NCBI GenBank assembly: GCA_950295325.1
Contig: OX485803.1
Span: 37,711,554-37,775,553, forward strand
Reading direction: 5' to 3'
Source of the DNA: Polytrichum commune
Taxonomy: Eukaryota > Streptophyta > Polytrichopsida > Polytrichales > Polytrichaceae
DNA length: 64,000 nt
The notes below the pieces were generated by a model. It made no database searches. It was given only the letters and a program-made list of their open reading frames with translations, and was not told the origin of the DNA. The translations under genes and the position numbers were made by a program. The first letter of the stretch is position 1, and each line of letters opens with the position of its first letter. Shown here piece after piece: positions 4,412 to 62,925 of the stretch.

Positions 4412-4435
4412 TTCACATGCGTTAAGGGAAACTCA

Positions 4436-4600
4436 AGTATGTGAGTGTAGAGCGGAGAGCGGAGAGCAAAAAATTTTGGTATAAATTTTGACAGAAAGTG
4501 GGTGTATTACCGTGGGTTTAGGGGGTATTAGTAGAAACATTTGTTGAAAAGGGAGCCCAATTCCGTTGAAATATACATAAATTAGGGCTGATGTCAGTAC
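4436..4600 (+). repeat. Dispersed non-coding repeat, GAGCGGAGAGCGG type
   Basis: It has GAGCGGAGAGCGG, then a TTACCGTGGGTTTAGGG-like block, and ends AAATTAGGGCTGATGTCAGTA. A similar order occurs at 26282-26530 (GAGCGGAGAGCGG, ATGGGTTTAGGG, AAATTAGGGCTTACATCACTA). The end block also occurs inverted near 25118. This is probably a small non-autonomous transposon or SINE-like repeat; the class is unresolved. Confidence 0.35.
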
Positions 4601-5340: not shown

Positions 5341-5478
5341 ACAAACTAATTAGATTAGCAGTAATAAATGAAGAATGCAATGCGGGTAGTATGAATTGGA
5401 GTGTATTGTGTGGTGTGCAACTTAAGTATTATTGAATACTTATGATTTAATGAAACAAGGAGGAGGTGTGTGAGGCAC

Positions 5479-7137
5479 TGTGAGGCCAAAACCACCCCCC
5501 TTAAGCGTCCTAGTCCGGGTGATGGTGTTGAGAATCACATGTATTGTTCGTATCAAAAGAATGATCTCTTTGCATCCCAAGGCATTCATGTCATTTTGAA
5601 TCACTTTGTTTATTAGTAGTGACCTCTTGGCTTGTGGCCGAATTGGCCTTCTCAAGAGTCCAACCGGCAGCCTTGGCAACACAAGTTCTCAAGGATATTC
5701 TCCTTGCGCCTTTGATTATCCTCTCCTTCACCTTGCCAATGCTAGAGTCCTCCTCTTTCTCCATTTTATATAAGTGATTGATTTTTGACCAAAAAGGATG
5801 TAAGTGTTGAAAAACACTCCCTCAATGGTTAATCTCAAATACAATTGCTTGTAAAAACCACACACCCTCCTAGCTATCTAACCACACAACTCACACATTG
5901 ACTAATTTCATTAAGTCATCTCCCTAACTCCTAATTCTAAAGTCACCCACATCACTCATTAGTTGATGGTTTCACTAGCTTAATCTCCAACTAATTCTTA
6001 GATCTCCTAATCCCAGCTCGGCTTGGTTCACCCTTGATCTGATGGTAACTTCGGTTGAACACGTAGCCCCTTAGTCTGCTGGCCTAACCGGTAAGCCCTT
6101 AGTCTGTTGGTCGAACAGGTAGCCCTTAGTCTGCTGGCCTAACCGGTAACCTTAGTTTGCTGGTCGAACAGGTAGCCTTAGTCTGTTGGCCTAACCGGTA
6201 ACCTTAGTCTACTGGTCGAACAGGTAGCCTTAGTCTGCTGGTCGAACATGTAGCCTTAGTCTGCTGGCCTAACCGGTAACCTTAGTCTGCTGGTCGAACA
6301 GGTAGCCTTAGTCTGCTGGCCTAACCGGTAAGCCCTTAGCCTGATGGGCAAAGCTTAGTACATTTGCAACTAAGTTTTGGCCAAGCTCATTAATGGCCCT
6401 AACTAACACACTAATTAGGAGTCCACCTAAAGGGATTTCAAACTACAAACTAATTTGGTGACCCTAAGCCTCTAATCAAATACTTTGCTACTTGGTTTTT
6501 ATGATTTGGACTAATTAACTAAACTAACTCCCTAACATCACTAAGGGCTAACTAATCCACACATGTGGCTTTCAAGCTATAAGAGCTCACTCCCGTGGGA
6601 GAAATTGAGAGAGAGAGCTTAACTAACTAACTTCACTAGAAACTAACAATCCACACACGTGGCTCAAGCTCTTAAGAGCTTGCTCCCTTGAGAGCGCTTG
6701 ATGGAGAGAGAGGTAAATGAGAGAAAAAACACCTTAAGTAGTAAAGAGGGAGAGAGGGAGAGAGGGAGAGAGGTGAGGATAGGGTGAGAGGATTAGCACC
6801 TCCAATCACAATCCCTTAACCTTCTCCTTCAAAGTAGGGACTAATCCCCATCCACCAAGCTTCCTTCTTCCTAAACTAACAAGATGGATCCAAAAGTGGG
6901 CATTTAACCCGCGGAGCTCACCTTGCCTCACCTTACCCCTTACTCACATAATCAAGGTATTCTCCTATTGAAATCAAACCTTGAAATAACCACACAACAC
7001 ATTCTAATGCCTAAAGTTAAATCCACACCACACTTCACTCTTTTTATGTTTTGTGAATAATCATAACACCTCAAAGTCAAACTAAAATTGGTTTCGAAGA
7101 GTTAATCACCACATGTGGGCACCATTTTGGGCTCACA
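5479..7137 (+). mobile_element. LTR-like element, copy 2, with 5-bp target duplication
   Basis: It starts TGTGAGGCCAAAACC and ends ATTTTGGGCTCACA. It is flanked by the direct repeat GGCAC (5474-5478 and 7138-7142). The paralogous sequence near 27253-27275 reads straight through GTGTGAGGCACCAAC and so represents the empty site. A 5-bp duplication with TG...CA ends is the signature of LTR retrotransposon integration. At 1659 bases with no coding frame this is a solo LTR or a non-autonomous element. It lies just beyond the 3' end of gene A. Confidence 0.75.
6055..6350 (+). repeat. Minisatellite of alternating 26-base half-units
   Basis: Alternating CTGCTGGTCGAACAGGTAG and CTGCTGGCCTAACCGGTAA half-units, about eleven in all. 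It occupies the same relative place in this LTR-like element as the unrelated minisatellite in copy 1. Confidence 0.85.
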
Positions 7138-7377: not shown

Positions 7378-10300
7378 CTAATGGCTTGGAGAACATTCCT
7401 TATCACTCTCCTCACCCTCATTTGCTTCTAACAAGAAAATATATCGTGTTCCACGCGAGAAATGACGAACGCGAGGAGGAGGTGGGGCCTCCGCCTTCGC
7501 AAAGCAATCCGCCATTGCACTAGCATACGGGGGAAGCTCAAATGGCTTCGGAGGACTTGAGAACATGTCTCGACGAATGACTGCGTCCTCCGCTGGCTCT
7601 CTAAACACCCAAGCAAAATGATTAGAAACATGATGACACTGGAAAATGAGAACCTGAAATCAAGGCAAACATGGCAAAATATAGAAATCAAACTTACGCA
7701 CAAAGGAATCCGAATGCCCGTTTGGTCATCTTTTGAGGAGGATCAAAGATAGATGTAGACGGTGCGGCAACTAAGCGAGATATACGCGCAGGCTGGGGAT
7801 CGCGCATGGGGAGTAGGAGCGCATTGAAAATGATGGGGTCACTCTCAAGAGCCAGAATATGCCGCTCAAGGGAGCGACATGCTGTAATTGAACCACCTAA
7901 AGCAAAGAGAGGTAAAATGTTAGTATGGAAACTAGTGAAAAAAAAATAACCGAAAAATCAAAGTAAGGATGATGCTGAAAGAGAATGCGTACCTACACCA
8001 CATTGCCAGTCCATAATAACATCATTCTTGTCGGTGAGAGTAGCAAAAATGATAGAGAAAAAAATATGATGTTTTTCGCGAGCACCTCTCCAGGGTATCC
8101 CATCACTACGCATCGCCTGACTCTTCTCATCGGTGAAAGCATTCAACCATCCATCTCGCTGGAGATTGTAACCATACTCTTGCATGGCCTCCTCACGCAC
8201 TTTGAGAACGGAGTTAATACGAACAAGAACCTTGATGTTGAATTTCTGAGTCTGAAAAAAACAAAACGATTTCATAAGACTCGGAAGAAGTGAAATGAAA
8301 AACAAAACAAAATCGGAGTAGGAGATGGAGAATAGTTTACAACTCCAGAGGGGACCACAGGAGATTGGAGGTCCAAATCATTCATACCGAACCAATCTTC
8401 GGCGACGTAGAAGTCGTACGTGTGTGCCCAATCGAAAACAATCCTAGAAACACTGGCACTCGCACAATGGGCTAGGATAAGGACACCATGATCATAGAAG
8501 TTAGATTTTGCAAATGCAAAAAGACACTCATAATATGATTCATGTAGCTTGTTCCAAGCAGGAACATCGGTGGAGATGTTAGGCACCGGCAAATTCTCGG
8601 GAATGTCTACGAAGAGCAAATTAAGGCCCTTGTGAGTTGTAGTCGAGGTGTTCACACGGGAACGACCTGCCCCAACCTGCAATTAAAACTACATGAGAAA
8701 ACAAGAGGAAGGAAAAAATAAACAAACCAAAAGGAAAGGAGTTTAAAAAATGAAGAAGGGAAAGATACAAACTTTGGCAATGAACTCCTGGATGCGCGTA
8801 TATGCCGGGAGGGGACTTCCTGCAAGCTCAGAATCGAGCATGAGTTGGACCATGTCCACATTTTCGATGAGGGCAAGAGTGTTAGGCGACTCTGAAGAGG
8901 TGACACTCGTATCCAAGAGGGCGGCCTTCCTCTTGCGAAGCAAGGATAGAAGAGAAGTGCCACTGTGAGAAGGAGTAGCAATAGTTTGTGGACGAGATGC
9001 TGAGGGAGTAATAGAGGGGACAGCTGATGGAGCATCGGAGGGACTGTTAGATGGACTCTGTATGAGGGTGGGTGGTTGAAGGGGGATCTTTGAAGCAGAC
9101 CGAATGGGAAGGTGGGAAGTTGCTTGAGTGCCGGTATTCTTTGCTCTGCCCTTTTCCTTTGGTGCCTTGGGTTTAGGAGGAGGAAGCTCAACGATATCGG
9201 ATTCCTCAAAGGGGACAATGTTTTCCTCGGGAGCAATACTCATAATGCTGGGAAAAAGAGGTTTCTCTTCCGCAGGCACAAATCCTCCAGAACAATCCAA
9301 GTACCATCCCCCAGCCTGCAAGTGAGATTCCGGAAATTTGGCAACTTGCATGGCCGTATACACACAAAGATTGGAGTTGACATCGACCCAATCTACAAGG
9401 AAAGTTGGCAAGCACGAAGAAGGCAGAGCATTCTTCGCAACGAGCTCACGGTGAATGAACCTGGAAAATAAAGAACATCATGAACAAAAACAGTGGCGGA
9501 AAGGTAATAAAACGAAAACAATATGTACTAAATGAAAACTCAAAATATTACCGGTAAGTGACGCGTTTGATTGATATGGGGCTTTCTTCAAATTCCATGA
9601 GATCAAGGCCTTTGACAAATTTAAGATCTCCCTTGTCGTCAAAATAAACCAAAAATGCCTTGTCCCACAGAATCAGCCTCCAATGCTCAACATAATTGGC
9701 CGGTTGGAAAATATCTTCCGTGGAACCCCAATCGATTTCAACAGAACACTCATTTTCAAATGAAGCAATCTCAGCCTCAACCCCCTTCTCCAACTATGAC
9801 AAGAAAAAAAATAAGTTAGAAATGTAAAGTAGAGAAATGAACAAATAGATAACTTAGAAATCTGAAACTATCACTAGACTTGACATTTGAAACTCAAACA
9901 TGGCCGAGATGGTGCCCAAGACCTTAGAAATTCTCAAAAATGACACTATCCTAGAAATTAGAAGCTCAAACATGGCCCTTGAAAATCCAGATTTCCCCAC
10001 CCTAAACAGTAGCCTAGAAATCAGATACTCAAACATGGCCCTTTGTAAAACCACATTTCTGCACCCTCTCGGAAACGAGAGGGTGCCAAAGTCCTTACAA
10101 ATTCTCAAATATGATACTATCCTGTAAATCAGAAACTCAAACAGGGCACTTGAAAATCTACATTTTTGCACCCTCTCGGAACCGAGAGGGTGCCCCAGTC
10201 ATTACAAATTCTCAAATATGACACTAGCCTAGAAATCAGAAACTCAAAAAGGGCACTTGAAAATCCACATTTCCCACCCATGACACTAGCCTAGAAAACA

Positions 10301-13080
10301 GAAACTCAAACATGGCCCTTGAAAATCCATATTTACCCATCCCAAATATGACACTGACCTAGAAATCAGAAACTCAAAAATGGCACTTGAAATCCACATT
10401 TCCCCACCCTCTCGGAACCGAGAGGGTGCCCCAGTCCATACAAATTCTCAAATATGACACTAGCCTAGAAATCAGAAAATCAAACATGGCACTTGAAAAC
10501 CCACATTTCAGCACCCTCTCGGAACCGAGAGGGTGCCCCAGTCCTTACAAATTCTCAAATATGACACTAGCCTAGAAATCAGAAACTCAAACATGGCACT
10601 TGAAAACCCACATTTCAGCACCCTCTCGGTTCCGAGAGGGTGCCCCAGTCCTTACAAATTCTGAAATATAACTCTAGCCTAGAAATCAGAAACTCAAACA
10701 TGGCACCTGAAATCCACATTTCTGCATCCTCTCCGTTCCGAGAGGGTGCCCCAGCCTTACAAATTCTGAACTATAACTCTACCCTAGAAATCAGAAATTC
10801 AAACATGGCACTTCAAAGCCCACATTTCTGCACCCTCTCGAAACCGAGAGGGTGCCCCAGTCATTACAAATTCTCAAATATCATTTTCTCCTAGAAATCA
10901 GAAACTCAAAAATGGCCCATGAAATCCACATTTCTGCACCCTCTCGGAACCGAGAGGGTGCCCCAGTCCATACAAATTTTCAAATATAAGAGTAGCCTAG
11001 AAATCAGAAACTCAAACATGGCCCTTGAAAATCCAGATTTCCCCACCCTAACCACTAGCCTAGAAATCAAAAACTCAAACATGGCCCTTTGTAAAACCAC
11101 ATTTCTGCACCCTCTCGGTTCCGAGAGGGTGCCCCAGCCTTACAAATTCACAAATATGACACTAGCCTAGAAATCAGAAACTCAAACATGGCCCTTGAAA
11201 ATCCAGATTCCCCCACCTTCAACACTAGCCTAGAAATCCGAAACTCAAACATGGCCATTTGAAAAACCACATTTCTACATCCTCTCGGAACCGAGAGGGT
11301 GCCCTAGTCCTTACAAATTCTGAAATATAACTCTAGCCTAGAAATAAGAAACTGAAATAGAGAAAGGAATAAACGGAGGGAAAAATATTGTAGATGAACC
11401 TGAGCCCAAAATGAAGCTTTGTTGAGCCAGTTTTCAAGGACTTTCTCCCTAAGAGGGAGAGCCGATGGAAATCTATTCTTATCTTTGACTTCTGCAGGGG
11501 AGTTCCACCAACGAAGCCACTTGGCCTTGAAGTGGGGATCCACATGTGCGGTGGCCACCTTTTGAAGTTTTTCGATTGTCATATCAGTGACGAGGAAGGT
11601 GGAGAAATGACGGTCAATCTGCCACATACAAGAGTGATAAGTAAGAAAGAAATATCAAGCACGAGAGGATTTATAGGAGAATGAAAAACTAAATGAAAAT
11701 ACAAAGATAGTAGAGGCACCTCGTTGAAGAAATCATCACCGTTGTCCTTGTGGGCAACGGAAATGAACTTCTCAAAGTTCCGAGAACGAATGCTTTTGAT
11801 CAACCTATCCTGGGCTTTTGTCATAGCATCCCAAATTTCTGGCGCTGATCTGAGAGCCTCGGGAGTGGCCTCATGGTATAACCTTGCCGCCGTATCAGCC
11901 GCGTTGGATATCTCCCTCTGAATCAAACAAAAAGAAGGATAAGGAACGCACATAAACATGGGAGAAGCAAAGTCAAAGAAAATTTACACAAAATTTACCT
12001 TGTATAAGAATTTGACGAAGACGTCTAATATAAGGGGATACCAAGTAGGATTCTTCTCCATCTTGGACTCACACATCTTGTAGTCAGCAACGAAAAGGAG
12101 GTCTTTAAACTCCTCTAGCCTCATCTTCCCAAACGTCCGAATGCGAAGTAACTTGGCGGGCAGGTTGTCCTTAACATGATCATGCTCCGTGGACCTAAAC
12201 AAAGAAAATGTTAGGGGGAAAAATGCGAAAAAACAAAAGACAAGCACAACAACATAAAATGTCAAACTCACCAGTTGATGTCATTCATAGCATTAAGGAA
12301 GAGGGCCGTGCAATTCCTTGGATCCACCACAATACAATCAGCAGAGATATGCCAATCTTTGTCCATCGGGTGATGATTGTTGATGTGCCTCCACCAAGCT
12401 GTCAACCGATGGTTCCCCTCCCACACGTAGAACATTTTGTCAACAAAGTTAGCAAGGTCAGAGTCTCTTTGGAGAATGGCATCAAACTCTGCATTGGCCT
12501 CATGCCATAATGAACTCCAGGAGGCCTTGATGTCATCGGAGACATGAAGGACCTCATCGAGGTTGTTGAATGGAGAGACGTACATAGCTCGGTCACCATC
12601 ACGATAACCCATCACGAACTCATTCTCCAAACGAGCAACATCAACGTCGTTGATGGGTTGAACTAGAGGAAGACAACGCAAGCGACACAATGGAATAGAG
12701 AAACGAGACTTCCCGAGAGGTTTGAATCGAACCCGCTGAATCACGGTGTTCGAGTCTTGATTCTGCGATCTCCGAATCAATAGCTCAGTCTCATCCGGAT
12801 TTGACTCAGCTAGAGGTCGAAGGCAGTCGGATACAATCGGAACATCAATCTACAAAAAAAATGCAAAGCATAAGAAGATAACACAAAAACCAAACATACA
12901 AGAATCTGAATTAAACATTGATACAACAAAAAAATACCAACAAAAGCTCAACGAATTAAACACCTCTCCCTGTGAGATGTCATCAAGAGCCCCAATGAGA
13001 GCCACAGGAGGCGACAATGGAACATCGACATCTTCCATTGAATGCACAAGTGATACAGGAAGAGCCAAAGCCTGCGATGC
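7378..13080 (-). CDS. Gene A: ParB-like plus methyltransferase-like protein, 11 exons (5' exon missing)
   Basis: The exons in transcript order are 12964-13080, 12272-12849, 11999-12194, 11720-11917, 11400-11618, 9552-9793, 8773-9460, 8341-8676, 7999-8251, 7698-7896 and 7378-7600. All junctions are GT-AG and every phase agrees, giving about 1080 residues. The order is: a ParB-like segment ending in VWEGNHRLTAWWRHINNHH; a helical region with WLRWWNSP and LNKASFWAQ; a Ser/Pro-rich linker with KPKAPKEKG; then a methyltransferase-like part. In that part LLFVDIPENLPVP sits where motif IV (DPPY) belongs, IPWRGAREK lies before motif I, and DWQCGGSITACR matches motif I across an intron. Beta-class N4C/N6A methyltransferases have this order. 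DPPY is lost, so catalysis is doubtful. A first coding exon must lie upstream, perhaps beyond the repeat array. It is the only family copy here without a visible break. Its function is not known to me. Confidence 0.75.
9850..11340 (+). repeat. Hairpin tandem array, block 1 (inside an intron of gene A)
   Basis: About 14 units of roughly 107 bases. Each carries ACCCTCTCGG-NN-CCGAGAGGGT, followed by GCCCCAGTCCTTACAAATTC, CTAGAAATCAGAAACTCAAA and CATGGCACTTGAAA blocks. It fills the intron between exons 9552-9793 and 11400-11618; the same intron of paralogue C is about 100 bases once its gypsy element is set aside. The many short frames across it are artefacts of the period. Confidence 0.9.
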
Positions 13081-13144: not shown

Positions 13145-16100
13145 TAATACCGACATTCCCCACCCTTTCAGAACCGAGAGGGTGCCCCAGTCCTTACAAA
13201 TTCTAAAATATAACTCTAGCCTAGAAATCAGAAACTCAAACATGGCACTTGAAATCCACATTTCCCCACCCTCTCCGAACCGAGAGGGTGCCCCAACCTT
13301 ACAAATTCTGAAATATCACTTTCTCCTAGAAATCAGAAACTCAAACATGACACTTGAAATCCACATTTCCCCACCCTCTGGGAACCGAGAGGGTGCCCCA
13401 GTCCTTACAAATTCTCAAATATAACTCTAGCCTAGAAATCAAAAACTCAAACATGGAACTTGAAATCCACATCTCCCCACCCTCTCGGAACCGAGAGGGT
13501 GCCCCAGTCCTTACAAATTCTCAAATATAACTCTAGCCTAGAAATCAAAAACTCAAACATGGCACCAGAAATTCCATATTGCCCCACCCTCTCGGTTCCG
13601 AGAGGGTGCCCCAACCTTACAAATTCTGAAATATCACTTTCTCCTAGAAATCAGAAATTCAAACATGGCACTTGAAATCCACATTTCCCCACCCTCTCGG
13701 AACCAAGAGGGTGCCCTAGTCCTTACAAATTCTCAAATATAACTCTAGCCTAGAAATCAAAAACTCAAACATGGCACCAGAAATTCCATATTGCCCCACC
13801 CTCTCGGTTCCGAGAGGGTGCCCCAACCTTACAAATTCTGAAATATCACTTTCTCCTAGAAATCAGAAACTCAAACATGGCACTTGATATCCACATTTCC
13901 CCACCCTCTCGGAACCAAGAGGGTGCCCTAGTCCTTACAAATTCTCAAATATAACTCTAGCCTATAAATCAAAAACTCAAACATGGCACCAGAAATTCCA
14001 TATTGCCCCATCCTCTCGGTTCCGAGAGGGTGCCCCAACCTTACAAATTCTGAAATATCACTTTCTCCTAGAAATCAGATACTCAAACATGGCACTTGAA
14101 ATCCACATTTCCCCACCCTCTCGGAACCGAGAGGGTGCCCCAGTCCTTACAAATTCTCAAATATAACTCTAGCCTAGAAATCAGAAACTCAAACATGGCA
14201 CTTGAAATCCACATTTCCCCACCCTCTCTGAACCGAGAGGGTGCCCCAACCTTACAAATTCTGAAATATCACTTTCTCCTAGAAATCAGAAACTCAAACA
14301 TGGCACTTGAAATCCACACTTCCCCACCCTGTTGGAACCGAGAGGGTGCCCCAGTTCTAACAAATTCTGAAATAAAACTCTAGCCTAGAAATCAGAAACT
14401 CAAACATGGCACTTGAAATCCACATTTCCCCACCCTCTTGGAACTGAGAGGGTGCCCCAGTCCTTACAAATTCTCAAATGTGACACTAGCCTAGAAATCA
14501 GAAACTCAAACATGGCACTTGAAATCCACATTTCCCCACCCTGTCGGAACCGAGAGGGTGCCCCAGCCTTACAAATTCTCAAATATCACTTTCTCCTAGA
14601 AATCAGAAACTCGAACATGGCCCTTTGTAAAACCACATTTCTTCACCCTCTCGGAACCGAGAGGGTGCCACAGCCTTACAAATTCTTAAATATAACTCTA
14701 GCCTAGAAATCAAAAACTCAAACATGGCACCAAAAATTCCATATTGCCCCACCCTCTCGGCTCCGAGAGGGTGCCCCAATCCTTACAAATTCTAAAATAT
14801 AACTCTAGCCTAGAAATCAGAAACTCAAACATGGCACTTCAAATCCACATTTCCCCACCCTCTCGGAACCGAGAGGGTGCCCTAGTTCTAACAAATTCTC
14901 AAATATAACTCTAGCCTAGAAATCAGAAATTCAAACATGGCACTTGAAATCCACATTTCCCCACCCTCTCGGAACCGAGAGGGTGCCCCAACCTTACAAA
15001 TTCTGAAATATCACTTTCTCCTAGAAATCAGAAACTCAAACATGGCACTTGAAATCCACACTTCCCCACCCTGTTGGAACCGAGAGGGTGCCCCAGTTCT
15101 AACAAATTCTGAAATCTAACTCTAGCCTAGAAATCAGAAACTCAAACATGGCACTTGAAATCCACATTTCCCCACCCTCTTGGAACTGAGAGGGTGCCCC
15201 AGTCCTTACAAATTCTCAAATGTGACACTAGCCTAGAAATCAGAAACTCAAACATGGCACTTGAAATCCACATTTCCCCACCCTGTCGGAACCGAGAGGG
15301 TCCCCCAGCCTTACAAATTCTCAAATATCACTTTCTCCTAGAAATCAGAAACTCGAACATGGCCCTTTGTAAAACCACATTTCTTCACCCTCTCGGAACC
15401 GAGAGGGTGCCACAGCCTTACAAATTCTTAAATATAACTCTAGCCTAGAAATCAAAAACTCAAACATGGCACCAAAAATTCCATATTGCCCCACCCTCTC
15501 GGCTCCGAGAGGGTGCCCCAATCCTTACAAATTCTAAAATATAACTCTAGCCTAGAAATCAGAAACTCAAACATGGCACTTCAAATCCACATTTCCCCAC
15601 CCTCTCGGAACCGAGAGGGTGCCCTAGTTCTAACAAATTCTCAAATATAACTCTAGCCTAGAAATCAGAAATTCAAACATGGCACTTGAAATCCACATTT
15701 CCCCACCCTCTCGGAACCGAGAGGGTGCCCCAACCTTACAAATTCTGAAATATCACTTTCTCCTAGAAATCAGAAACTCAAACATGGCACTTGAAATCCA
15801 CGCTTCCCCACCCTCTCGGAACCAAGAGGGTGCCCCAGTCCTTACAAATTTTGAAATATAACTCTAGCCTAGAAATCAGAAACTCAAACATGGCACCTGA
15901 AAATCCACATTTCCCCACCATCTCGGAACCGAGAGGGTGCCCCAGTCCTTACAAATTCTGAAATATAACTCTAGCCTAGAAATGAGAAACTCAAACATGG
16001 CACCTGAAAATCCATATTTCCCCACCCTCTCGGCACCGAGAGGGTGCCCCAACCTTACAAATTCTCAAATATAACTCTAGCCTAGAAATCAAAAAATCAA

Positions 16101-16743
16101 ACATGGCACCTGAAATTCCATATTGCCCCAGCCCTTACAAATTCTCAAATATGACACTAGCCTACAAAATCAGAAACTCAAACATGACACTTGGAAACCC
16201 ATATTTCCCCACCCTCTCGGAACCAAGAGGGTGCCCCAGTCCTTACAAATTCTCAAATATCACATTCTCCTAGAAATCAGAAACTCAAACATGGCAATTG
16301 AAATCCACATTTCCCAACCCTTTCGGAACCGAGAGGGTGCCCCAGTCCTTACAAATTCTGAAATATAACTCTAGCCTACAAAATCAGAAACTCAAACATG
16401 GCACTTGAAATCCATATTTCCCCACCCTCTCGGGACCGAGAGGGTGCCCCAGTCCTTACAAATTCTCAAATATGACATTCTCCTTGAAATCAGAAACTCA
16501 AACATGACACTTGAAATCCACATTTCCCCACCCTCTCGGAACCGAGAAGGTGCCCCAGCCTTACAAATTCTCAAATATGGCGCTAGCCTAGAAATCAGAA
16601 ACTCAAACATGACACTTGAGAACCCATATTTCCCCACCCTCTCGGAACCGAGAGGGTGCCCCACTCCTTACAAATTCCCAAATATCACATTCTGCTAGAA
16701 ATCAGAAACTCAAACATGGCACTTGAAAGTCACATTTTCCCAC
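13145..16743 (+). repeat. Hairpin tandem array, block 2
   Basis: About 33 units of the same ~107-base hairpin repeat, directly upstream of the first visible exon of gene A. Centres vary (AA, TT, CT, CA, GA) while the nine-base arms are mostly conserved. The block is interrupted at 16744 by a small DNA transposon and resumes at 17241. Confidence 0.9.
14160..15780 (+). repeat. Higher-order duplication of 742 bases within the hairpin array
   Basis: Unit variants such as CCCTGTTGGAACCG, CCCTCTTGGAACTGAG and CCCTCTCGGCTCCGAG recur in the same order exactly 742 bases apart (for example 14701 and 15443). About seven units were therefore duplicated together, recently enough for few differences to be visible. 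Confidence 0.75.
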
Positions 16744-17240
16744 CACGGGTAGATCACTCTAAGGCATTTTTGTGCACCACGTGCGGCTGGGGGTTATTTG
16801 TTTTGGGGCTATTTACCTTCGAGGGTTGAATTAAAGCCTCCCTATAATTACTTCAATTTCAAAAATGGCCCATTTGTTTGCACCCTTTCGTTACTTATAT
16901 TTTCCAAGTCATTGCAAATTTTTGTACTCTATATTCCTTTTAATTCATTTTTGGACAGATGGAAATCCCAATTATTATCCATCCCCGTGAGTCCTAAACC
17001 CATTTATATACCATACTAAACATACCTTCTAGGATCCTTATCTTCAGCCCCTATATTAATTTTACAAAAAATAATGGCCCACGTTTTATGTCCATCTAAC
17101 TTACTTATAATGGGATTGTCTACATTTAATGGCCCTTTCATTATTTGGAATTCCTTTATAATTTTTATTTCAAATGATTTTAATCCTCTCTATATTATGC
17201 CGCACGTCGTTTTTTAAATGCACTAAGTGATCTACCCGTG
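16744..17240. mobile_element. Small non-autonomous DNA transposon, 497 bases, TIR CACGGGTAGATCACT
   Basis: Perfect 15-base terminal inverted repeats bound an AT-rich interior without coding frames. Flanks are TTTCCCAC (16736-16743) and TTCCCCAC (17241-17248), an 8-base target duplication with one mismatch. It interrupts the hairpin array. Terminal repeats and the inner block GCCGCACGTCGTTTT resemble the element at 22357-23133, so both are one family. An 8-base duplication suggests hAT or another 8-bp-TSD superfamily. Confidence 0.8.
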
Positions 17241-18625
17241 TTCCCCACCCACTTGGAACCGAGAGGGTGCCCCAGTCATTACAAATTCTCAAATATGACA
17301 CTCTCCTAGAAATCAAAAAATCTAACATGGCACCTGAAATTCCATATTGCCCCACCCTCTCGGTTCCGAGAGGGTGCCCCAGTCCTTACAAGTTCTCAAA
17401 TATGACACTAGCCTACAAAATCAGAAACTTAAACATGACACTTGAGAACCCATATTTCCCCACCCTTACCGTTCCGAGAGGGAGCCCCAGTCCTTACAAA
17501 TTCTCAAATATAACTCTAGCCTAGAAATCAAAAAATCAAACATGGCACCTGAATTCCATATTGCCCCACCCTCTCGGTTCGGAGAGGGTGCCCCAGTCCT
17601 TACAAATTCTCAAATATCACATTCTCCTTGAAATCAGAAACTCAAACATGACACTTGAGAACTCATATTTCCCCACCGAGAGGGTGCCCTAGTCCTTACA
17701 AATTCTCAAATATCACATTCTCTTAGAAATCAGAAACTCAAACATGGCACCTCAAAATCCATATTTCCCCACCCTCTCGGAACTGAGAGGGTGCCCCAGT
17801 CCTTACAAATTCTCAAATATCACATTCTCCTAGAAATCAGAAACTCAAACATGGCAATTGAAATCCACATTTCCCAACCCTTTCGGAACCGAGAGGGTGC
17901 CCCAGTCCTTACAAATTCTGAAATATAACTCTAGCCTACAAAATCAGAAACTCAAACATGGCACTTGAAATCCATATTTCCCCACCCTCTCGGAACCGAG
18001 AGAGTGCCACAGTCCTTACAAATTCTCAAATATGGCACTAGCCTAGAAATCACAAACTCAAACATGGCACTTGAAATCCACATTTCCCCACCCTCTCGGA
18101 ACCGAGAGGGTGCCCCAGCTTTACAAATTCTCAAATATGACATTCTCCTTGAAATCAGAAACTCAAACATGGCACTTGAAATCCACATTTCCTCACCCTC
18201 TCGGAACCGAGAGGGTGCCCCACTCCTTACAAGCTCTCAAATATGACACTAGCCTACAAAATCAGAAACTCAAACATGGCACGTGAAATCCACATTTCCC
18301 CACCCTCTCGGAACCGAGAGGGTACCCCAACCTTACAAATTCTCAAATATAACTCTAGCCTAGAAATCAAAAACTCAAACATGGCACCTGAAAGTCCATA
18401 TTGCCCCACCCTCCCGGTTCCGAGAGGGTGCCCCAGTCATTACAAATTCTCAAATATGACACTCTCCTAGAAATCAGAATCTCAAACATGGCACTTCAAA
18501 TCCGTTCCGAGAGGGTCCCCTAGCCCTACAAATTCTAAAATATAACTCTACCCTAGAAATCATAAATTCAAACATGGCCCTTGAAATCCACATTTCTGCA
18601 CCCTCTCCGTTCCGAGAGGGTGCCC
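17241..18625 (+). repeat. Hairpin tandem array, block 3
   Basis: About 13 further units of the ~107-base hairpin repeat. The segment near 17821-18000 repeats that near 16261-16440 almost exactly (offset 1560 bases), so the array was also duplicated at a larger scale around the transposon. Confidence 0.88.
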
Positions 18626-24866: not shown

Positions 24867-27537
24867 ATGAAAATAAAGTAGAGGATGGTTATATATAGCT
24901 ACTTGGACTGAATACACATTTTTGTAAGTCTTGAGTTTGGCACCTATCTTCATGAACATTTTCTCGGCCAATCAAATATTTTGTGTTTGGTAATTATTGA
25001 AATCTAATCGTACTTGGAAATAGTACCCAACCTACTTGGCGCAATTTATCACTTTGTGGAAATCATTTATGTACACTTAAATTGTTCATCATATGTTTAT
25101 GTTTGATTTCAATTGGTGACGTCAGCCCTAATTTAATATATGCAACACATATTACATCTGTCAAAAAATAAATCATGAAATAAAAAATAAAAAATCATGT
25201 ATTCTAAAAACTCCTCCTTACTAGTTCCAACACTCTATAGTCTACTTGGAAGCATACCCAACTTAATCACTTCATATGTTAAACATGTTTGTAACATAAT
25301 GTAGGATGTTAGATGATCTTGGGCAACCTAGATTTTTTACATTTGTAGAAGATATTAAGGTCTAAAGAAACCTTCATTAACTATTCATACAATATAGCAT
25401 GAGCATTGTATTATACATTATACAAGAAAATTCAAACTTGTAGAATGATATAATACAAGTATTACTTGGAACCACCCCCCCCCCCCCCGCCCCCCAATCA
25501 TGAAGTTTTCACTAACTAGGATATGGGACAAGAACTTGGTATCTAGGTGCAAGTTGGACAACTAACACCAAAATCCAAAGACAAATGAATCATGGATGTG
25601 CGTGAACTCTGGTGCAGGGACTTTTTGTTGGAAACCTAAATGATGTGCATAGGTGACCATGAAAAATGATACCCCTACATGCGAGAAATTTATAGAGAAC
25701 AAATAATATATATGTACGAACAATACATTAGAAAATGGCTCATATATTTATACTAAGCTTTTCAATTTAATGTGGTGAAATCCTCCACTACATACACGAA
25801 CAAAACTTCATGAAATAAATAGGCCTCCATTCCATATATGATCCACTTTTACTTTCCAATGATATTTAGTCTTTGGTAATCTTTCATCCATAGGATATAG
25901 CCCAAAATACCTTGACCCTTGAACATACACATTATTTTAAAAAATAACATTATTTAGATGAAAATAAAAAATCTATTGTCAATCATGTCTCTAGATCTTA
26001 AAAGCCTTTTATACATCTATTCTAGAATTTCTTTGGAGAACTGTGTCAACTTCCCAATTACCACAATAATATATACCAAATTAGCAAAACATATATCTAG
26101 AAACGCTTCTAAACCCTCTTGGTTTGAATCTACCACCCCAGAAAACGTTTATCAAACATGAATGAGGCTGCTATACCTACCAAAAAGCCATAGCAACCAA
26201 ACGAACTAGGTAATGGATGTGAGAAACCTTCTCTTGACATGTAGTAAGCGCCCAACCTACCAAGTTGCAAGGGGAAAGTTAGTATGCGAGCGGAGAGCGG
26301 CGATTTGGAGAGCGGAGAACTCCATTTGATACATGAATTGAGAGGGGAAATGCACCTATAACCGTGAGATTATGGGTTTAGGGTAGAGCTATTTTTAGAA
26401 AATTTTATGAGTTAGGGTCTCTATTACCGTGGAAATAGAACAACATTGCCCCATTTGAAACGTTTACATATTTTTGAAACATATATATATTATAATAAAA
26501 TACAAAATTAGGGCTTACATCACTATTACGTCATAAATACAATTACCAAACTTGTGTACTATAGTACATATTACTGTAAATCAAATAAAAATTACTATAT
26601 GAAGGAAACACGAAGGAGGTATGTGAAAAGAATTCCCCACATATAGTCCACTCTATTAATGTTACACCTATAAATGTTAACCCTTTGTAATTGTTAACTT
26701 TATTCTACTCCCCACATATTGCACACTTTTAAATTTGACTCTATATATGTTAACGAATGAAATGCAACCATAATTACTCTTTGGAAAGACTACGTTTGGC
26801 TACGTTTAGTTCTAGTGACGGAAGTGTAAGAATGAAGGTACATGAGAACTTCCATTAGAAGGTACATGGAAACACGTTCATGTGGGTGTCCAAGTATGTG
26901 GGTTTGTTGGTGCAAATTGAGAAATATTTGCAAGTTGTGCATGCCCATGATTCATACTTCACCCATGATTTCTAAACTTCATATTGAATAAAGTTTTGAT
27001 TGGGTTTGCAATTTTATGAATGGTATTCTCTCACAAGGACTCTTAAAAAATGATTATATTTATAAATGTTAAGATTTGTATATTGGTCGATAAAACAATT
27101 TTATAATTGGTAACTGTTAACACCTTAATAAATGTTAACTATGATCGTTTCCCGAGGGTTAACATTTGAGGGTGAACATTATAGAAAGTGTTGTGTGGTG
27201 TGTAACTTAAGTATTATTGAGTATTTATGATTTAGTGAAACAAGGAGGAGGTGTGTGAGGCACCAACTTTATATTTGAATGGGTGGATGCTACATTAGCG
27301 GTTAAGATTGTGAGAGGCATACCCCTTTGAAGGGTAGGTGTTCATATCTATCTGAGAGGCATACCGTTTAGGGATACTTGAACTATACTTAAGGGCTAAT
27401 CCACAAACTATTTACAATAATAATTGAAAAATGCAATGCGGGTTGACATTATGGGAATGAAATAAAGAAGAGCAAGTATGAGACTTGCGACGGAAATTTA
27501 AAAGCCAAAAATAATACAATCCAATACAAAATGGAGT
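24867..27537. other. Intergenic DNA, AT-rich
   Basis: No gene was recognised. It contains a C-rich homopolymer tract near 25472-25495, an inverted copy of the GACGTCAGCCCTAATTT end block near 25118, and a GAGCGGAGAGCGG-type repeat at 26282-26530. From about 27190 the sequence parallels 5400-5478 plus 7138-7330 (downstream DNA of gene A), marking the paralogous 3' flank of copy B. Confidence 0.5.
26282..26530 (+). repeat. Dispersed non-coding repeat, second GAGCGGAGAGCGG copy
   Basis: The order GAGCGGAGAGCGG, GATTATGGGTTTAGGG, ATTACCGTGGAAAT and AAATTAGGGCTTACATCACTA parallels 4436-4600. Boundaries are approximate and no coding frame is present. Confidence 0.35.
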
Positions 27538-28844
27538 TCAAGGAATAAACTCATCCTCACTCTCCGAAGCACTTTGATCTATGTATCTAAGTACTCTTGG
27601 ATCGTATCTCTCACGTGGACTAGAAGAGGCACTAGAGCTATGGGAGGAGTATTTGGCATAAGCTACTGCCATATCCTCGGCATAAGAAGGAAGTCGCATG
27701 GTAGGACTAGTCGGCGAGCCGAAGTATTGATCCATCAAACTGCACCAACAGAGGAGAAATTACGATTGTTAGAATACTTCCAATCAAATGCAACATACTC
27801 AACATTAAGTTTAAGATGAAAACAAACTTACTCACATAGATTAACTGCACCCTGTTGAGGGAGGGCATCGTCGTCGTCCTCGTCAAGGTCTACAACGTGA
27901 GTTGGATCGACCCCTAGAGACTCTGAGGCTGCGACCTGTATTGGGTGCAAAATTTCTTCGTACAATTCCTTGTCTCCCTCAAGTGCCATTATTGCCCTGT
28001 TAGTAGATTGTGCTGCAAGAACCGAGGCACCTACAAAGAGCAAAACAAATGAATTAGTAGAAGGTGATTGAATTGCCTAAGTCTAGAGGCATGGGAATGT
28101 TACACAAATTACTCATACCAGTTCCAGCAGTGAGGTCACATAAATCCCGCCTGGAGGGCTAAGGCCACTGATTAGAAGCTGGAGCAGGGACACTGCCTTC
28201 TCTTTAGGGCCCCTCCAGAATGTGTCACTGTCGTTGCGCTTGAGTGCAGTATCAGAGGTGACAATGTTGAAAAGAACGTCATTATTTGTAAGGTCAACAT
28301 CTTCAAATTTGTCACTGGAAGAAATAACAAACTCCTTGGGTGGCCTAAGCAAAGGTGTGGAGAAAAATCGAACCAACACAATTGCTTTGAATTTCAGAGT
28401 CTGGACATCAAACATAGGCCTCGAATTGTTAGCAATGTGATTGAAAGTATGAATGACTTCGAACTTGAAGAGTGAGAAATCACTACAATTACTCACCCGC
28501 TTAGAGTTATGCATAGGGTGAGTGAGGTGTAGAGAATTAACGATGGTCCATTCCTCCTTGACCTCCAAGTTGTTGTTGTAGAGAAAGCTCAAGACCTCCT
28601 TCTTGATTTGCACACTGTCAGGATAAAATAAGAGGAATGCGCCATCGTCGTGAAGATAGCCCTGACAAAAACCAATGGTGAACTTGATAAAGTTCTGAAC
28701 CTGCTTATTCCAATTTGGAACTTGCCCCGGAAATTCAGAAACTCCTGGGACAGGCAAACCATCAGGATACTCTGCAATGACGAGGTCCACCGCAGCCTTA
28801 TGCAACACCTTGCCGGAGAAGAAGAATTCCCTGGATGCTCCAAC
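27538..28844 (-). pseudogene. Paralogue B: methyltransferase-like part only, frameshifted
   Basis: The exons are 28497-28844, 28119-28400, 27836-28030 and 27538-27739. DLVIAEYPDGLPVPG stands at motif IV, TFWRGPKEK precedes motif I, and CDLTAGTG joined across an intron to ASVLAAQSTNRAI is the best motif I of the family. The exon 28119-28400 is 282 bases where the paralogues give a length of 3n+1. A one-base loss just before CDLTAGTG puts the upstream part out of frame. The last junction also does not keep phase with the conserved tail LPSYAEDM. No ParB-like or linker exons are found upstream; the frame at 29272 intervenes. It is a truncated, probably non-functional copy of the A family. Confidence 0.7.
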
Positions 28845-29844: not shown

Positions 29845-32800
29845 GATGGGTTTAGGGATGAGAAATGCTATTGACCTTTAAAAAAAGTTATTATAATTTT
29901 GTATATTTTTTGAACATATAATTGTTATCTATTGCAATTATATGTCCACATTATTGTTTTTGGTTTCATTGCTATTACTATTTAAAAGAACCAACTTTTT
30001 GACTAATGTGGTTTTCACTTTTTTAGGCTCCAGTAGTCTGTAAATATTTTATCGGGAATTTCAGAATCACTTTGGCACATGATATATATTTCCTTCATGA
30101 GGCCATGAACATCAAATTAAATAGTTAAAAAAAATCAAAAATATGATACATGTTTATGATCTTGTATAAAGAACAAATAAGAATTGACAGCAAAAAAATC
30201 CCACAACTGGACATACACGAATATCAAATGGAAAAATTATAAAAAAAACCCGATGGTCGCGTACAAAAATGCAAGATGTGTGCGAAAGACACCTTAGAGG
30301 AAAATGTAATCAAATCCAGTCAAATCAAATCAAATAAGATGAAAACAACAAAAGACCGAAACGTCCTTCCAAAACTCATGATATGCTCTAATCGCTACTT
30401 CCACTATCTGATCTCGAGGACTCTGAATCTCCTTCTACAGCCTCTGTATCCATAAATACAAGGGCCCTAGGATCACAAGTAGTAGCTCGACTAGGAACAT
30501 ATCTAACGGCACCGGATTGAAGCGCTTGTGCTAAGTCCTCAGCATACTCTGGAAGAATATAAGGCTGTATCGGACTGGAGTTCACACGCCACGATGGAAT
30601 GGGCATGGGTCTTGGCATAGGTCGCGGTGTTGATGCAAGTACTCTGCAATAGAAACCCGATAGTGGTTAGAATGAGTACGTGGAGATGCAAACAAAAGCA
30701 AAGCTAACATAAATCGACTAGAAGTAAAAAATGTAAAGTAAGACTTACTTACAAGCCCATTTATTGCGTCTTTTTTTTTAGGGCGCGATTCATCAGCAGA
30801 TGCAGGTCTGGGATGTTTAGGAGGGCCCATGACAGGTCTTGAAGCGATATATGGACGGAGAATGGCGTTGAAGATGGGTTCGTCATCCTTAAACGCCACA
30901 ACATGACGACCAATCTCCTGGCAAGCCTTAATGGTAGCCCCTGAATTCAAAGCATCGCAAATATGTGAGACTCTGTTGAGAATATGAGAGGAATGGAAAT
31001 TCAGAACTAATTAATGAATGGTTACATGTTCCTGCCTTCCAGTCGAGGACTATGTCGCCGGGCTTGGTCAGCTGCTCAATGAGGGCCTGCATGAACAAAG
31101 GGGTTTTTTCCCTTGGTCCTCTCCATGGGACGTTCCCATTCATGAGCTGAGTCTCCGCAGTGGTGAGGTTGAACAGGGCATCACTCTTGGTTATATTAAC
31201 GTCGTCATGTATCATCTCGGATTTCTTCGTCTGGAATGAGAAATTAGATGTCACGTCGCCACCACGAATAAAGACGTGAATCTAGAACCGAATAGACTGT
31301 AGTCAACCAAAACATGTGAGAATAAATAAAAAAAGAAGTTATCACTAAACATAAACAAGGAATGATTACGGTGTAAATACCTTGGAGTCGGGGTCCGTAG
31401 GAGAAGCCAACTCGAGGTCATTGATGCCCCACCAGTCCTTGTGCATCACAAAGTCGTAAGTCTCAGCTTGATCGAAAATGTCCGTAGTGAGCTTTCGATC
31501 ATTGTTGTGGATGAGGAGGAGAGCACCATCGTTTTACAAGTAATGACTTGCAAATTCGAAGATCGACACCACATATTCAGGATCCCGGGAGTTCCAAGGT
31601 GGAACGACTGATGGAGGATTGGATACGGAAGGGACGGGTAGATTCTCAGGGATGTCGGCAATGATCAAGTCGATCCCAAAGTGCTTCTTATTTTCGCACC
31701 GTTCTGGAACTTGGGTTTGGCGGCCTTCTCCCATCTTAAAGAAACCAGGAAGAAAAATTAGACTTTATAATATGTAAAAAAAACCTGATGCATCCAAAAC
31801 GAGTCGAAGCAACGGATTGTACCTTACGAATGAAGTCTAGAATTTGAACCCATCTTGGATCGCCACCGTTGTCAGACAACTTCGTATGTGAAGTCATCAA
31901 CGTCTCCACAGATATGCTGGAGACAAAAACATGGGCGGAATGTGGAATTCCACTGGAAGAGGTGCTCGTGGGAAATAGTTTTGCCTTCCTCTGCTCAATG
32001 AGACCTCTCGTCATCTCCAATGCACTGACTGAGGAAGGCACGGTCGTAGAAAAGGGAGCAGTATCGAGAACGACTTTAGATTGAGAAGCAAGGAGTGTCT
32101 GCGACAAGGGAGCGGATGACTCCGTCTGCCCTAGCTCTGATGCTTATGATTCCGAACTCAAGGAGATAATGTCCGTCCCTCGACGCAAACGACGCCCTCT
32201 CTTGGGCTTCGGTGGTGGTGCAGAGGATTGATCCTGGTGCCCTTCGTCATCTTCAGTAACTCGCGTGGTATCTTCTTTCACCTCCACTCTGCCATCATGT
32301 AAGGTCTTCACCTCCGCCTCTGAATCAAAGACAAAACCACGAACACAGTCGAGATACCAACATTCTGCATGCAAGTGTGGTTGTTTGTACCTTTTTAACT
32401 GCTGGGCAGTATATATACACTGGTCTGAACCTTTCTGAATCCATGCAGCAAAATATTTCGAGAGTGCTTGAACATCGATTGCACCTTTGGGAACTAGCTC
32501 CCTCTTGAAGTACCTAAAAAATGACAAATACAATATGTTATAGGACTCATTAACGATATAAAGAGAAATGAACATGATTGATATAGCAAGGGAGGTTGAG
32601 TTATATTCATACTGGTATGTAACCCGCCTGACAACCTCTGTCGTTCCCGGGAATTTGGTGAAATTGGATTTCTTATCGAAAACCTTCTCAGTCCGGGAAC
32701 CTAGGAATGTAGGGAATGCCTTCTCCCATAATAGAATACGCCAACAGTCCACATATGCGCCCAGTCGCAGAACATCTGGAGATGCCTTCTAGTTGATAAC

Positions 32801-32952
32801 GAGCTTCTCCGCCTTGCATATGTCCTCGAACTCGTGGATGACGGCTTCCTCCAACTAGAAGATAAAATTAAATTGATTAGAGACGAGTATGGATCGAGCC
32901 GAATGGAGAATAATTAAATTAATCACAAGAGAGTTTTGGGGTACTATACCCC

Positions 32953-39809: not shown

Positions 39810-41425
39810 ACCCCTGCCCAAAATGCTGCCTTGTTCAACCAAGGGTCAAGGTCGGCTTCCTTGAATTCTGGTGGTAGAAATCTATAAGAAAGCCTTGAAC
39901 TCGGAGAAGAGTTCCACCACCTCAACCAACGAGCTTTGTATTTGGCATCCATAACCGCTGGAATTATCTTTTGAAGCTTTTCCAATGTCATCTCTGGTTT
40001 AGAGAATTCACTGAAATGCCGATTGATCTGCGAGAAGAACAATATAGTAAAAGATAGGTAAATAGTATGATGATGGAAAGAGAATGATGTATCTACAGTA
40101 TAAGAAGTTAGAGTCTCACCTCTCCGAGGAAATCATCACCGTTTTTGGGATTCGCTATAGCCAAGTACTTGGTGAAGTCTTTCTTCGAAATGGCCTGGAC
40201 CATATTATCTGATGCCTCTGTCATCGCATCCCAAACACCGGTTGCAGTTTGGTCCTCCTTTGGGGTTCTTTCAATGTAGGCCCTAGCGGCTTCATCCGAA
40301 GCCATTGCAATCTCCCGCTGTAGAAGAAGAACAATATTTAGAAAGAGAACACAACTTCAAACCTTTGAGAAAAGAAGGTAATATAATCAATTATTGGAAG
40401 TAATTCTTACCCGGTATAGGAACGCAATGAACACTTTTGTTGTCAAGGTAAACCATTGATTTTTAGCCAGTTTATTATTCTTGCAGACATCGAACTCTTA
40501 TGGACTGAGGAGATCCTTGAATTTTTCCAACTTCATCACACCGAAAGAGCGGATGCGGTAAAGCTTCGCTGGAAGATTATTCTTTACGTGGTCATTTTCA
40601 GTAGACCTGAACATGGAATTCAAAAATTAGAGAATGAAAAAGAACAATATATGTATCAATACAGTTGGAGAAATATAATTAGGAAGATACTCACCAGTTG
40701 ATATCGTGCATGACATTAAGAAGTAGGCCCAGTTGGCCGCGTGGGTCTAAAATAATGCAATGCACGGAGATGTGCCATTCGGGATCCTCGGCATGATGAT
40801 TGTTAATATGTCTTAACCATGCGGCCAGGCGATGGTTACCTTCCCAGACCAAGAAAATCTTGCCAGAGAATTGCTTCAAATCAGGATCTGCTTGAAGTTC
40901 GTCTTCAAAAGACTGATTCGCCCTTTCCCAACATGGGCTCCAATCGGCCTTGACCTCCTCCGTAACATCCGATGACAACTCTTCGTTGTTGTACATAGAA
41001 ATGTACATGACTCGGTCCCCATCTCGATATCCCTTCACAAACTCCCGCTCTAGATGTTGTATCCCCATTTCACCGACTGGTCTCACTTTAGCCATTGATA
41101 TCATCCTACACAAGGGGACAAGCAACCAGGACTTCTTCAGGGGTTGAAATCGAACGCTGTTGATAACGTTGATGGAGTCCACCTTGTGCTGTGTTCGATG
41201 TTGCAATTCGCTATCTACAGCATTCGTCAAGGTTGAAGGGCAAGATGATGTTTGCAACACGTCTTGTGTTTGAATTTCCTGCCAAATGTCATGCAAATTA
41301 ATACTTGAACCCAACACTGTAGAAAGTGAAAACAAAATAATTAAATCACATAAAAATCATCTCAAAACCTTCTCATTAATAAAATACTATGAGAACAACT
41401 CAAACATCGTAGTCGGCCCTAAGTA

Positions 41426-42064: not shown

Positions 42065-42670
42065 AATAAAGACCCGGGGGAGGGGGGGGGGTCGTAGGAA
42101 CTGCTTTCGGAGCAGAAAGCAGTTCCTCACCCTCCCTCATATCTCGAAACTGAAGTCAAAAAACGTCAGCACCGTCCTTTTCTACACGGCACACATGAGG
42201 AACGAAAAACAATATCACCACCGCAGAACCCAACATACATCCCAGATAATCAGCATCCCCTCTCTCCAATTCACATACCATAAATTCAAAATTCAAGAAA
42301 CTAAACAACGACCCGGGGGAGGGGGGGGTCACAGGAACTGCTTTCGGAGCAGAAAGCAGTTCCTCACCCTCCCTCAAATCTCGACACTAAAAAATATAAA
42401 CATGGAGAACGTCACCTCCACAGAGGTGGTCCTTGGGACACGGCACACACAAGGCACACAATGCAATGTCACCACCGCGGAACCCAACACATAATCAAAA
42501 TAAAACGCAACCCCTCTCCATATCACATTGAAATAAAAATAGACTTGCAAAATCAGCAATGACCCGGGGGAGGGGGGGTCACAGGAACTGCTTTCGGAGC
42601 AGAAAGCAGTTCCTAATCCTCCCTCAAATCTCGAAACCACCCTTTGCAATGGTTCACCGAAGATTGTAGG
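42065..42670 (+). repeat. Second hairpin family, three tandem copies (~245-base period)
   Basis: At about 42071, 42311 and 42561 there is a unit of GACCCGGGGGAGGGGGGG, then AGGAACTGCTTTC-GGAGCA-GAAAGCAGTTCCT (13-base arms), then CCTCCCTCAAATCTCGAAAC. The intervening ~165 bases also repeat (ACCGCGGAACCCAACA). A fourth copy lies at 44587-44712. Confidence 0.85.
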
Positions 42671-61131: not shown

Positions 61132-61182
61132 AAAACAAGAACTTCAGCCTTTAAACTTCAACCCTCTAAAACTTAAAGTCCT

Positions 61183-61276
61183 CCCCACTTAAAATCTTCC
61201 GTGCAGTGTACAAGGGAGGTTCCTCTCGGCCGAGAGGAACCTCCCTTGTATACTGCACGGAAGATTTTAAGTGGGG
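61183..61276. repeat. 94-base near-perfect palindrome with CTCTCGG/CCGAGAG centre
   Basis: Two 47-base arms with no spacer, centred between 61229 and 61230 and pairing with a single mismatch (CAGTGTAC against CAGTATAC). The inner part is GGGAGGTTCCTCTCGG and its complement. It lies in the same gene D intron as the copia element, about 50 bases from the 3' LTR. Confidence 0.93.
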
Positions 61277-61322
61277 AAGGAGGCAGTGAGGGACTAGGTG
61301 TAGGGTGTTGCAGAGAACATAC

Positions 61323-62912: not shown

Positions 62913-62925
62913 CCCTTGAGAAATA

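Follow-up and report, generated by a model that had tools for sequence, protein, structure and literature searches.

We analysed a 64,000-nucleotide window of the Polytrichum commune genome (assembly GCA_950295325.1, contig OX485803.1, positions 37,711,554 to 37,775,553 of the forward strand), which carries on its minus strand, from window position 13038 to 7378, an 11-exon gene (gene A) with a product of ~1,070 residues. Gene A is the accessory (passenger) gene of a very abundant transposon. An in-frame GT-AG join is available at all 10 of its introns, so that the exons form a single open frame (Table 1). The N-terminal part bears the box VWEGNHRLTAW in exon 2, exons 3-6 make up the middle part, and exon 7 is a variable, proline-rich linker; the C-terminal part spans exons 8-10, with LLFVDIPENLPVP and VDIPENLPVP in exon 8 and PWRGAREK followed by DVIMDWQCGVGG-SITACRSLERHILALESD in exons 9 and 10. 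Re-read exon by exon, the gene has the location, strand and boxes given in an original prediction made from the window's letters, which had described a plant gene family (gene A and its paralogues B, C and D) joining a ParB-like domain to a methyltransferase-like fold; missing from that description were the transposon setting and the palindromic arrays that lie in intron 5 and upstream of gene A.

The genome searched comprises 408 Mb, with nearly all bases in seven large contigs (C1-C7). A search with exon 2 of gene A gave at least 150 scored matches (the best 150 of 1248 loose candidates) on C1-C7 and C61. Of the 150 listed, 108 contain no stop and seven have an identical score; further subfamilies raise the copy count beyond these matches. 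We compared 20-30 kb around two close copies of gene A (A2 and A3) and two copies from the seven-fold group (X1 and X2). In X2 and A3 a second gene, that of the transposase (~1,190 residues), adjoins the accessory gene and is divergently transcribed, and in X2 both genes are enclosed by the two inverted repeats. The terminal inverted repeats of the X copies read GGACGACACTTGTATGTGAGCGTAGAGCGGAG and CTCCGCTCTACGCTCACATACTTGAGTTTCCC, and 10-bp target duplications are present in all three X copies readable at both ends (X2, AGAAACTCGG; X3, CTCGGGTGGG; and X5, TTCCACAATC, its length being less certain because X5 lies inside a minisatellite); X1 and X4 were matched at the right end only. Position X1:783 was dropped as an element end, because X2 continues the transposase frame past that point. 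X1 and X2 show 13 differences in the 2,853 coding bases compared and 15 transposase matches are identical over 214 residues, among the matches listed, from which we infer that the X group has moved recently.

Accessory gene and transposase also occur together across the genome. A transposase match lies within 20 kb of 80 of the 150 exon-2 matches, 79 of them on the opposite strand and 78 divergent, against a mean of 2.8 and a maximum of 7 for random positions (200 trials); each list holds the best 150 of more than 1,200 candidates, and an unpaired match does not show absence of a partner. Copy A2 was rejected as an example of pairing, as the transposase found nearby is that of a Y element nested within its A array. 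The expansion of a module taken up by a plant lineage, as first proposed, is better put as the cargo of a self-amplifying transposon. A host-domesticated plant methyltransferase gene family would account for the introns, the open frames and the purifying selection that acts between A and X (proportions of nonsynonymous and synonymous differences, pN 0.02-0.05 versus pS 0.25-0.34 in exons 8-9 and 0.20-0.27 versus 0.77-0.88 in exons 2-6), but it is largely refuted by the number of copies, some of them identical, and by their inverted repeats, 10-bp duplications and pairing with a transposase, and we give it very little credence. An 18-Mb stretch, C4:41-59 Mb, holds 44 of the 150 exon-2 and 39 of the 150 transposase matches listed, many with stops; this stretch may be old, with low recombination or perhaps sex linkage.

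The transposase matches no Pfam family significantly and no Mutator-like element (MULE) model. Conserved between the X and Y transposases are RERTCxFHW and CxC...CKH, and the Pfam SWIM model reaches only E = 0.15, in Y. MULE target-site duplications are given as 8-11 bp in one account (PMC6446971); since the C..FHW motif, the CxC...CKH end and the 10-bp duplication all fit, the element is probably Mutator-like.

Subfamilies of the element carry palindrome arrays of their own. A-type elements hold dozens of CACCCTCTCGG-NN-CCGAGAGGGTG in units of ~106 bp, some in intron 5 and others upstream of the gene, and X elements hold (AA)GAGGCCTCGG-AT-CCGAGGCCTC(TT); in X2 and A3 the array sits between the two divergent genes. 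Genome-wide, the A palindrome occurs at 752 places and the X palindrome at 1903, and the reversed control patterns occur at 0 and 0. Among the first 50 A and first 50 X places, all on C1, 98 of 100 (49 A, 49 X) have a match from the exon-2 or transposase lists within ~10 kb, the exceptions being C1:9750565 and C1:13839475. On the same contig, locus L070 and its upstream region (C1:24591146-24600800) present an A-type array of ~9 kb by a transposase match, with no exon-2 match listed nearby.

Upstream regions were read in five close copies (L004-L008, 88-89% identity, 3.6 kb each), which all contain A-type palindromes (4 to 15 each), and in 16 further copies. A tabulation of palindromes covers 26 loci and nine pattern classes. 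A subfamily at 77-78% has GACCCTCTCGG-NN-CCGAGAGGGTC (14 in L028, 17 in L034, 29 in L035), L026 has 14 copies of CTCTCGG-CT-CCGAGAG, L031 and L032 are of X type (3 and 4), L033 is of degenerate X type, and L027 has one shortened A type. The Y loci L038 and L039 carry GTTTGGGTCG-NN-CGACCCAAAC (9 and 3) together with TGTGCGTTAACGCACA (6 and 6), and the Z loci L040 and L041 carry GGTTCGG-NN-CCGAACC or GTTTCGG-NN-CCGAAAC (14 and 4). Full palindromes of two clades occur together at 0 of the 26 loci, and a 30.8 kb control contains zero full palindromes and one half site. For nine new upstream regions, the palindrome class was predicted from the exon-2 clade and written down before the regions were read. 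Six agreed with the prediction: L061 (12 palindromes), L063 (11), L065 (8), L068 (5 and 7), L069 (2 and 3) and L067, where 29 half sites and zero palindromes were found, as predicted.

Fast-evolving minisatellites with hairpin potential, giving rise to small RNA or cruciforms, could in principle give the same picture without any binding, the match between array and gene then reflecting linked 5' ancestry. Tandem arrays do turn over rapidly, and linked neutral sequence would track adjacent exons as well. Against this, palindromes appear repeatedly in different clades whose array units are unrelated, with a TCGG-NN-CCGA core common to A, A', L026, X and Z in otherwise different units; and in the window, despite its many tandem arrays, no palindrome besides the A type (arms of at least 9, loops up to 4) occurs more than twice. 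Over 155 units, moreover, conservation is 96.8% in the palindrome arms, 85.3% in the two central bases and 91.4% in the rest of the unit, and arms more conserved than both the rest of the unit and the central bases point to selection on the sites. We consider the minisatellite explanation unlikely.

In the genes compared (four genes exon by exon together with the upstream survey; for the transposase, A3 versus X2), the class of palindrome tracks the N-terminal half of the accessory gene. It does not follow the methyltransferase half or, between A and X, the transposase. A and X, whose palindromes differ, are 54-69% identical in exons 2-6 (synonymous differences 0.77-0.88) and 87-95% identical in exons 8-11 (0.06-0.34), with the switch point near the start of exon 7. 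The A3 and X2 transposases show synonymous differences of 0.07-0.28 in every window and 85-100% identity in 17 of 21 windows of 60 codons. This pattern of divergence marks an old middle segment, consisting of the array and exons 1-6, flanked on each side by DNA shared more recently. Conversely, A and A' (C7:10818960) are 78-94% identical in exons 2-6 and 42-69% in exons 8-11, and a single base in each arm separates their palindromes. A fourth gene, X66 (C1:45990234), which has X-type palindromes, is 88-92% identical to X2 in exons 3-5 and 89-95% in exons 8-10; its exon 11 departs from both others (46-48%). The comparisons suggest that the N-terminal half and the array form an exchangeable recognition cassette. 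Repeated subterminal motifs are often bound by DNA transposases, and the palindromes, lying between the divergent genes in X2 and A3, could be binding or regulatory sites of the transposase which the accessory gene matches by linkage only. We judge this quite unlikely, because the A3 and X2 transposases are close yet their arrays differ, array type follows the N-terminal half in A, A' and X, and A has an array in intron 5 as well.

The methyltransferase-like fold assigned by the original prediction is borne out at the family level, single sequences giving weaker matches. Compared with PDB sequences, a profile of A, C, B and the relative L058 matches DpnA (E = 1.4e-7) and CcrM (E = 1e-4), and C matches PHROG 3008 (E = 4e-11). 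Spliced gene A alone matches no Pfam family at E up to 1; paralogue C, assembled from its exon pieces with X at its stop, matches N6_N4_Mtase at E = 3.1e-5 when untrimmed, which falls short of the curated cut-off, and at 2.4e-8 when trimmed. The order of motifs in the accessory gene, with the motif IV counterpart before motif I, is that of the beta class, and at the family level a methyltransferase-like C-terminal half is supported by these matches. The motif IV counterpart reads DIPE in A, X and C, EYPD in B, QFPD in Y, and DIPY in L058 and the phage locus L060, the one locus recovered when viral and prokaryote sequences were scanned with the methyltransferase profile. Catalysis may differ among subfamilies. 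L058 itself (C1:9661000-9663300), a 577-codon frame with DIPY and DLSVGTG, is nearer canonical and is a candidate active enzyme.

With a probability of roughly 0.55, we read gene A as the accessory gene of a Mutator-like transposon that acts as a self-targeting regulator of its own subfamily. The N-terminal half (the GNHR domain and exons 3-6) would bind the palindromes and so recognise its own subfamily; that it reads these sites is likely. The methyltransferase-like C-terminal half would then modify or shield the DNA, either by N6-adenine or N4-cytosine methylation or by binding S-adenosylmethionine without catalysis, keeping the promoter region of the element open and counteracting host silencing. 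A role of the protein against the silencing of its own element has close to an even chance at best, and methylation by the C-terminal half, given its altered motif IV, appears doubtful. The array and N-terminal half would transfer as a cassette into elements that retain their transposase and methyltransferase half, conferring a new specificity and letting the subfamily escape silencing, or dilution by old sites that have decayed; bacterial type I restriction-modification systems exchange their specificity subunits in a comparable way. A self-recognition code of transposons, in which each subfamily has a reader and dozens of cognate palindromes exchanged as one cassette, is a tentative extension that we put a little below even odds. 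If true, it would constitute a sequence-specific system of DNA modification or anti-silencing, carried by a eukaryotic transposon and evolving by cassette exchange, in which old decayed copies act as sinks that drive specificity switching.

Several observations weigh against this regulatory reading. Co-movement alone is no proof of binding, because neutral sequence linked to the N-terminal half would track it too. Two of the 26 loci, L029 and L030, contain half sites alone (50 and 27) and zero full palindromes; the C-type loci L036 and L037 have their own palindrome type in few copies (2 and 1); and A-type half sites (CCGAGAGG) occur in the X-clade loci L032 (7) and L033 (6). Three of the nine predicted regions also departed from expectation: L062 shows the expected class at one site only; L066, which resembles L026 in the last 280 bases only, has one half site at most; and L064 has 0 exact A palindromes, its ten sites with an intact right arm representing a one-base variant, at a seventh locus, in which the left arm is changed by one base in the six sites printed. 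A catalytic (D/N/S)PP(Y/F/W) motif is found in none of A, X, C, B, Y and L058, and this alteration of motif IV makes catalysis doubtful. Between window A and A3, the ratio of nonsynonymous to synonymous rates (dN/dS) is near 0.9 in exons 7 and 8, indicating weak constraint among those copies. Finally, neither a left inverted repeat nor a transposase was found for the window A copy, which is an open accessory gene and not a complete element.

The ParB-like domain of the original prediction is a further such point, as the fold was not confirmed by Pfam, PDB, PHROG or hhalign comparisons. For the A-type domain, Pfam and PDB profile searches gave nothing of note and the PHROG matches are at chance level; against bacterial ParB, hhalign gives a probability of 0.3% for the A type and 19.8% for the D type. 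The D type is weakly ParB-like, and a relative of that type matches GmrSD_N at E = 0.034; the PDB matches of the D type at E = 0.003-0.004 were taken as chance, all being to one unrelated bacterial protein. AlphaFold models of window exon 2 (from a two-row alignment) and of the D domain alone had mean confidence scores (pLDDT) of 33.7 and 34.1 and were unusable, and the exon-2 profile found no relative in the viral and prokaryote scans. Because of the GNHR box and published algal cases, a ParB domain in the A-type N-terminal half is plausible. ParB proteins clamp on parS sites, and palindrome arrays next to a GNHR box evoke such a pairing, so that a partition-like or tethering system, with ParB-like clamps on parS-like palindromes serving segregation or targeting, might be imagined; with the fold unconfirmed, no ParA partner noticed (no search aimed at ParA was made) and no known need of partition in an integrated element, this is highly improbable. 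PF02195 occurs in the genome on the small contigs C10, C12 and C23 only. The C10 locus (L056, C10:12900-15700), on a contig that is probably bacterial or phage, is a 722-codon ParB-methyltransferase frame whose methyltransferase seems by eye to be split by an intein-like stretch.

That transposons carry genes combining ParB and methyltransferase domains is already known (PMC12477816). Among the papers listed by our literature searches, no other was noted that describes transposon genes of this kind. The accessory gene of Sola1-1_Ec32 in Ectocarpus joins ParB to an N4C/N6A methyltransferase, green and red algal cases are cited there, and its authors already suggest that the algal protein binds and modifies its own transposon. 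As that account describes it, the likeness extends to a large transposon, ParB-like and amino-methyltransferase domains, and a gene lying opposite the transposase in one large element. Compared by description, the present element differs in belonging to a land plant, in its 10-bp duplications and in being classed as Mutator-like rather than Sola1, as well as in its unconfirmed ParB fold, its subfamily-specific palindrome arrays and the exchange of array and N-terminal half. Phage and bacterial fusions, in which ParB precedes PF01555 in one protein, are the subject of a survey (PMC12704722). The small contig C12 of this assembly encodes such a fusion, which has DPPY and scores above the cut-off for PF02195, whereas gene A has neither. 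Accessory genes share with DpnA and CcrM the motif IV counterpart before motif I, an REK block, the GDIVLDWKAG-GATIKAC layout and the profile matches noted above, and differ in that DIPE replaces DPPY in A, X and C.

The nearest parallel in logic is VANC, the anti-silencing protein of the VANDAL elements of Arabidopsis (PMC5735166, PMC10398659), which is described as binding tandemly repeated motifs in the noncoding and intronic DNA of its own element, protein and motifs diverging together (PMC5735166). Common to both, on these descriptions, are a Mutator-type element, an accessory protein and noncoding or intronic tandem repeats that diverge together with the protein, here in that palindrome class tracks the N-terminal half, the palindrome being the putative target. 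The differences are palindromes instead of directional 9-mers, the methyltransferase-like domain, and the lack of a match, up to E = 1, between spliced gene A and any Pfam family; the sequences were not aligned directly. The best reading is that gene A would be VANC-like in logic, not in sequence. We did not find the Mutator-like land-plant form, the subfamily palindromes or the cassette exchange among the papers listed by our searches, although earlier notice of the arrays in Iyer 2011 or Petroll 2025 is possible. The result is a concrete, testable pairing of a transposon protein family of suspected epigenetic function with defined DNA sites, of which a single genome holds several natural variants. 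Should binding be confirmed, this would be a second, apparently unrelated solution to the problem that VANC solves, namely how a transposon targets itself and nothing else; it may explain the recurrence of such genes in algal and plant transposons, and for epigenome tools it could supply a set of DNA readers, possibly orthogonal, that are joined to a methyltransferase-like domain.

Table 1. Features of the window (positions counted from its first letter).
Feature	Position	Strand	Remark
Candidate 10-bp target-site duplication (CATGCGTTAA)	4415..4424		second copy not found
Right terminal inverted repeat of window A element (GGGAAACTCAAGTATGTGAGTGTAGAGCGGAGAG)	4425..4475		same end as X copies
Insertion of ~1.66 kb in A element	5478..7137		missing at that point in A2 and A3
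Gene A exon 11	7378..7600	-	stop included
Gene A exon 10	7698..7896	-	end of motif I
Gene A exon 9	7993..8251	-	WRGAREK and DVIMDWQCG
Gene A exon 8	8341..8676	-	motif IV counterpart VDIPE
Gene A exon 7	8773..9460	-	variable linker; mosaic breakpoint near exon start
Gene A exon 6	9552..9793	-	
Palindrome array in gene A intron 5	9940..11357		~107-bp units, CACCCTCTCGG-NN-CCGAGAGGGTG
Gene A exon 5	11400..11618	-	
Gene A exon 4	11720..11917	-	
Gene A exon 3	11999..12194	-	
Gene A exon 2	12272..12849	-	ParB-like box VWEGNHRL
Gene A exon 1	12964..13038	-	start codon uncertain; alternative in-frame ATG near 13081
Palindrome array upstream of gene A	13156..18503		106-107-bp units
End resembling a terminal inverted repeat	26270..26310		perhaps another related element's
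Fragment B, methyltransferase-like	28143..28844	-	VIAEYPDG and WRGPKEK
Paralogue C, 3' exons 6-10	30834..32848	-	stops in exons 6, 7, 8
Paralogue C, 5' exons 2-5	39815..41263	-	stop in exon 3
Three copies of palindrome upstream of C	42096..42614		AGGAACTGCTTTC-N6-GAAAGCAGTTCCT; shorter one at 44630
Distant relative D	61176..63998	-	INGQHS box and VINLFGGLKP; palindromes at 61209 and 62998 containing CTCTCGGCCGAGAG

The remaining family members of the window are not the equals of gene A that had been supposed. Paralogue C has the boxes VWEGNHRLAAW, DLIIADIPENLPVP, PWRGPREK and PGDIVLDWKAG and can be aligned with A exon by exon, far above chance (exon 2, 49%, E = 4e-61; exon 8, 43%), so the sharing of boxes stands for this pair; C is a pseudogene, with four in-frame stops (exons 3, 6, 7 and 8), and is split between exons 5 and 6 by ~6.9 kb of other DNA (39815 to 32848). 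The sharing of boxes does not extend in the same way to the other two: B is a mere fragment, with DLVIAEYPDGLPVP and FWRGPKEK and no motif I, and D, carrying INGQHS and VVINLFGGLKP, belongs to a separate, distant lineage. No A or C exon matches the methyltransferase or ParB-like boxes in D, and neither LIIADIPE nor WRGPREK was seen in its two frames. The insert in C (32848-39815) has landmarks repeated 5,884 bases apart (33082/38966, 33152/39036, 33504/39388 and 33627/39511) and an integrase-like frame at 35171-35713, and, typed by eye, resembles a long terminal repeat retroelement. Related peptides lie near several elements (window 24357-24863 and 29206-29736, and X1 13702-14028); two of the three end in FYPYWTCPADRV, and one has a weak F-box score.

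Next to the A element is a CACTA frame (Transposase_21, 3050-4408; PF02992, E = 1.2e-63) that ends ~16 bases before the element's right repeat. We rejected gene A as cargo of this CACTA fragment, because the A element's own inverted repeat begins at 4425. Elsewhere, the window contains a Copia-type retroelement, recognised by eye, with two long frames of 672 and 700 codons (56830-60948), a DUF247 plant protein (46079-47722, E = 1.8e-51), by which the host is a land plant, and a NIF-type phosphatase domain (51944-52789, E = 6.8e-10).

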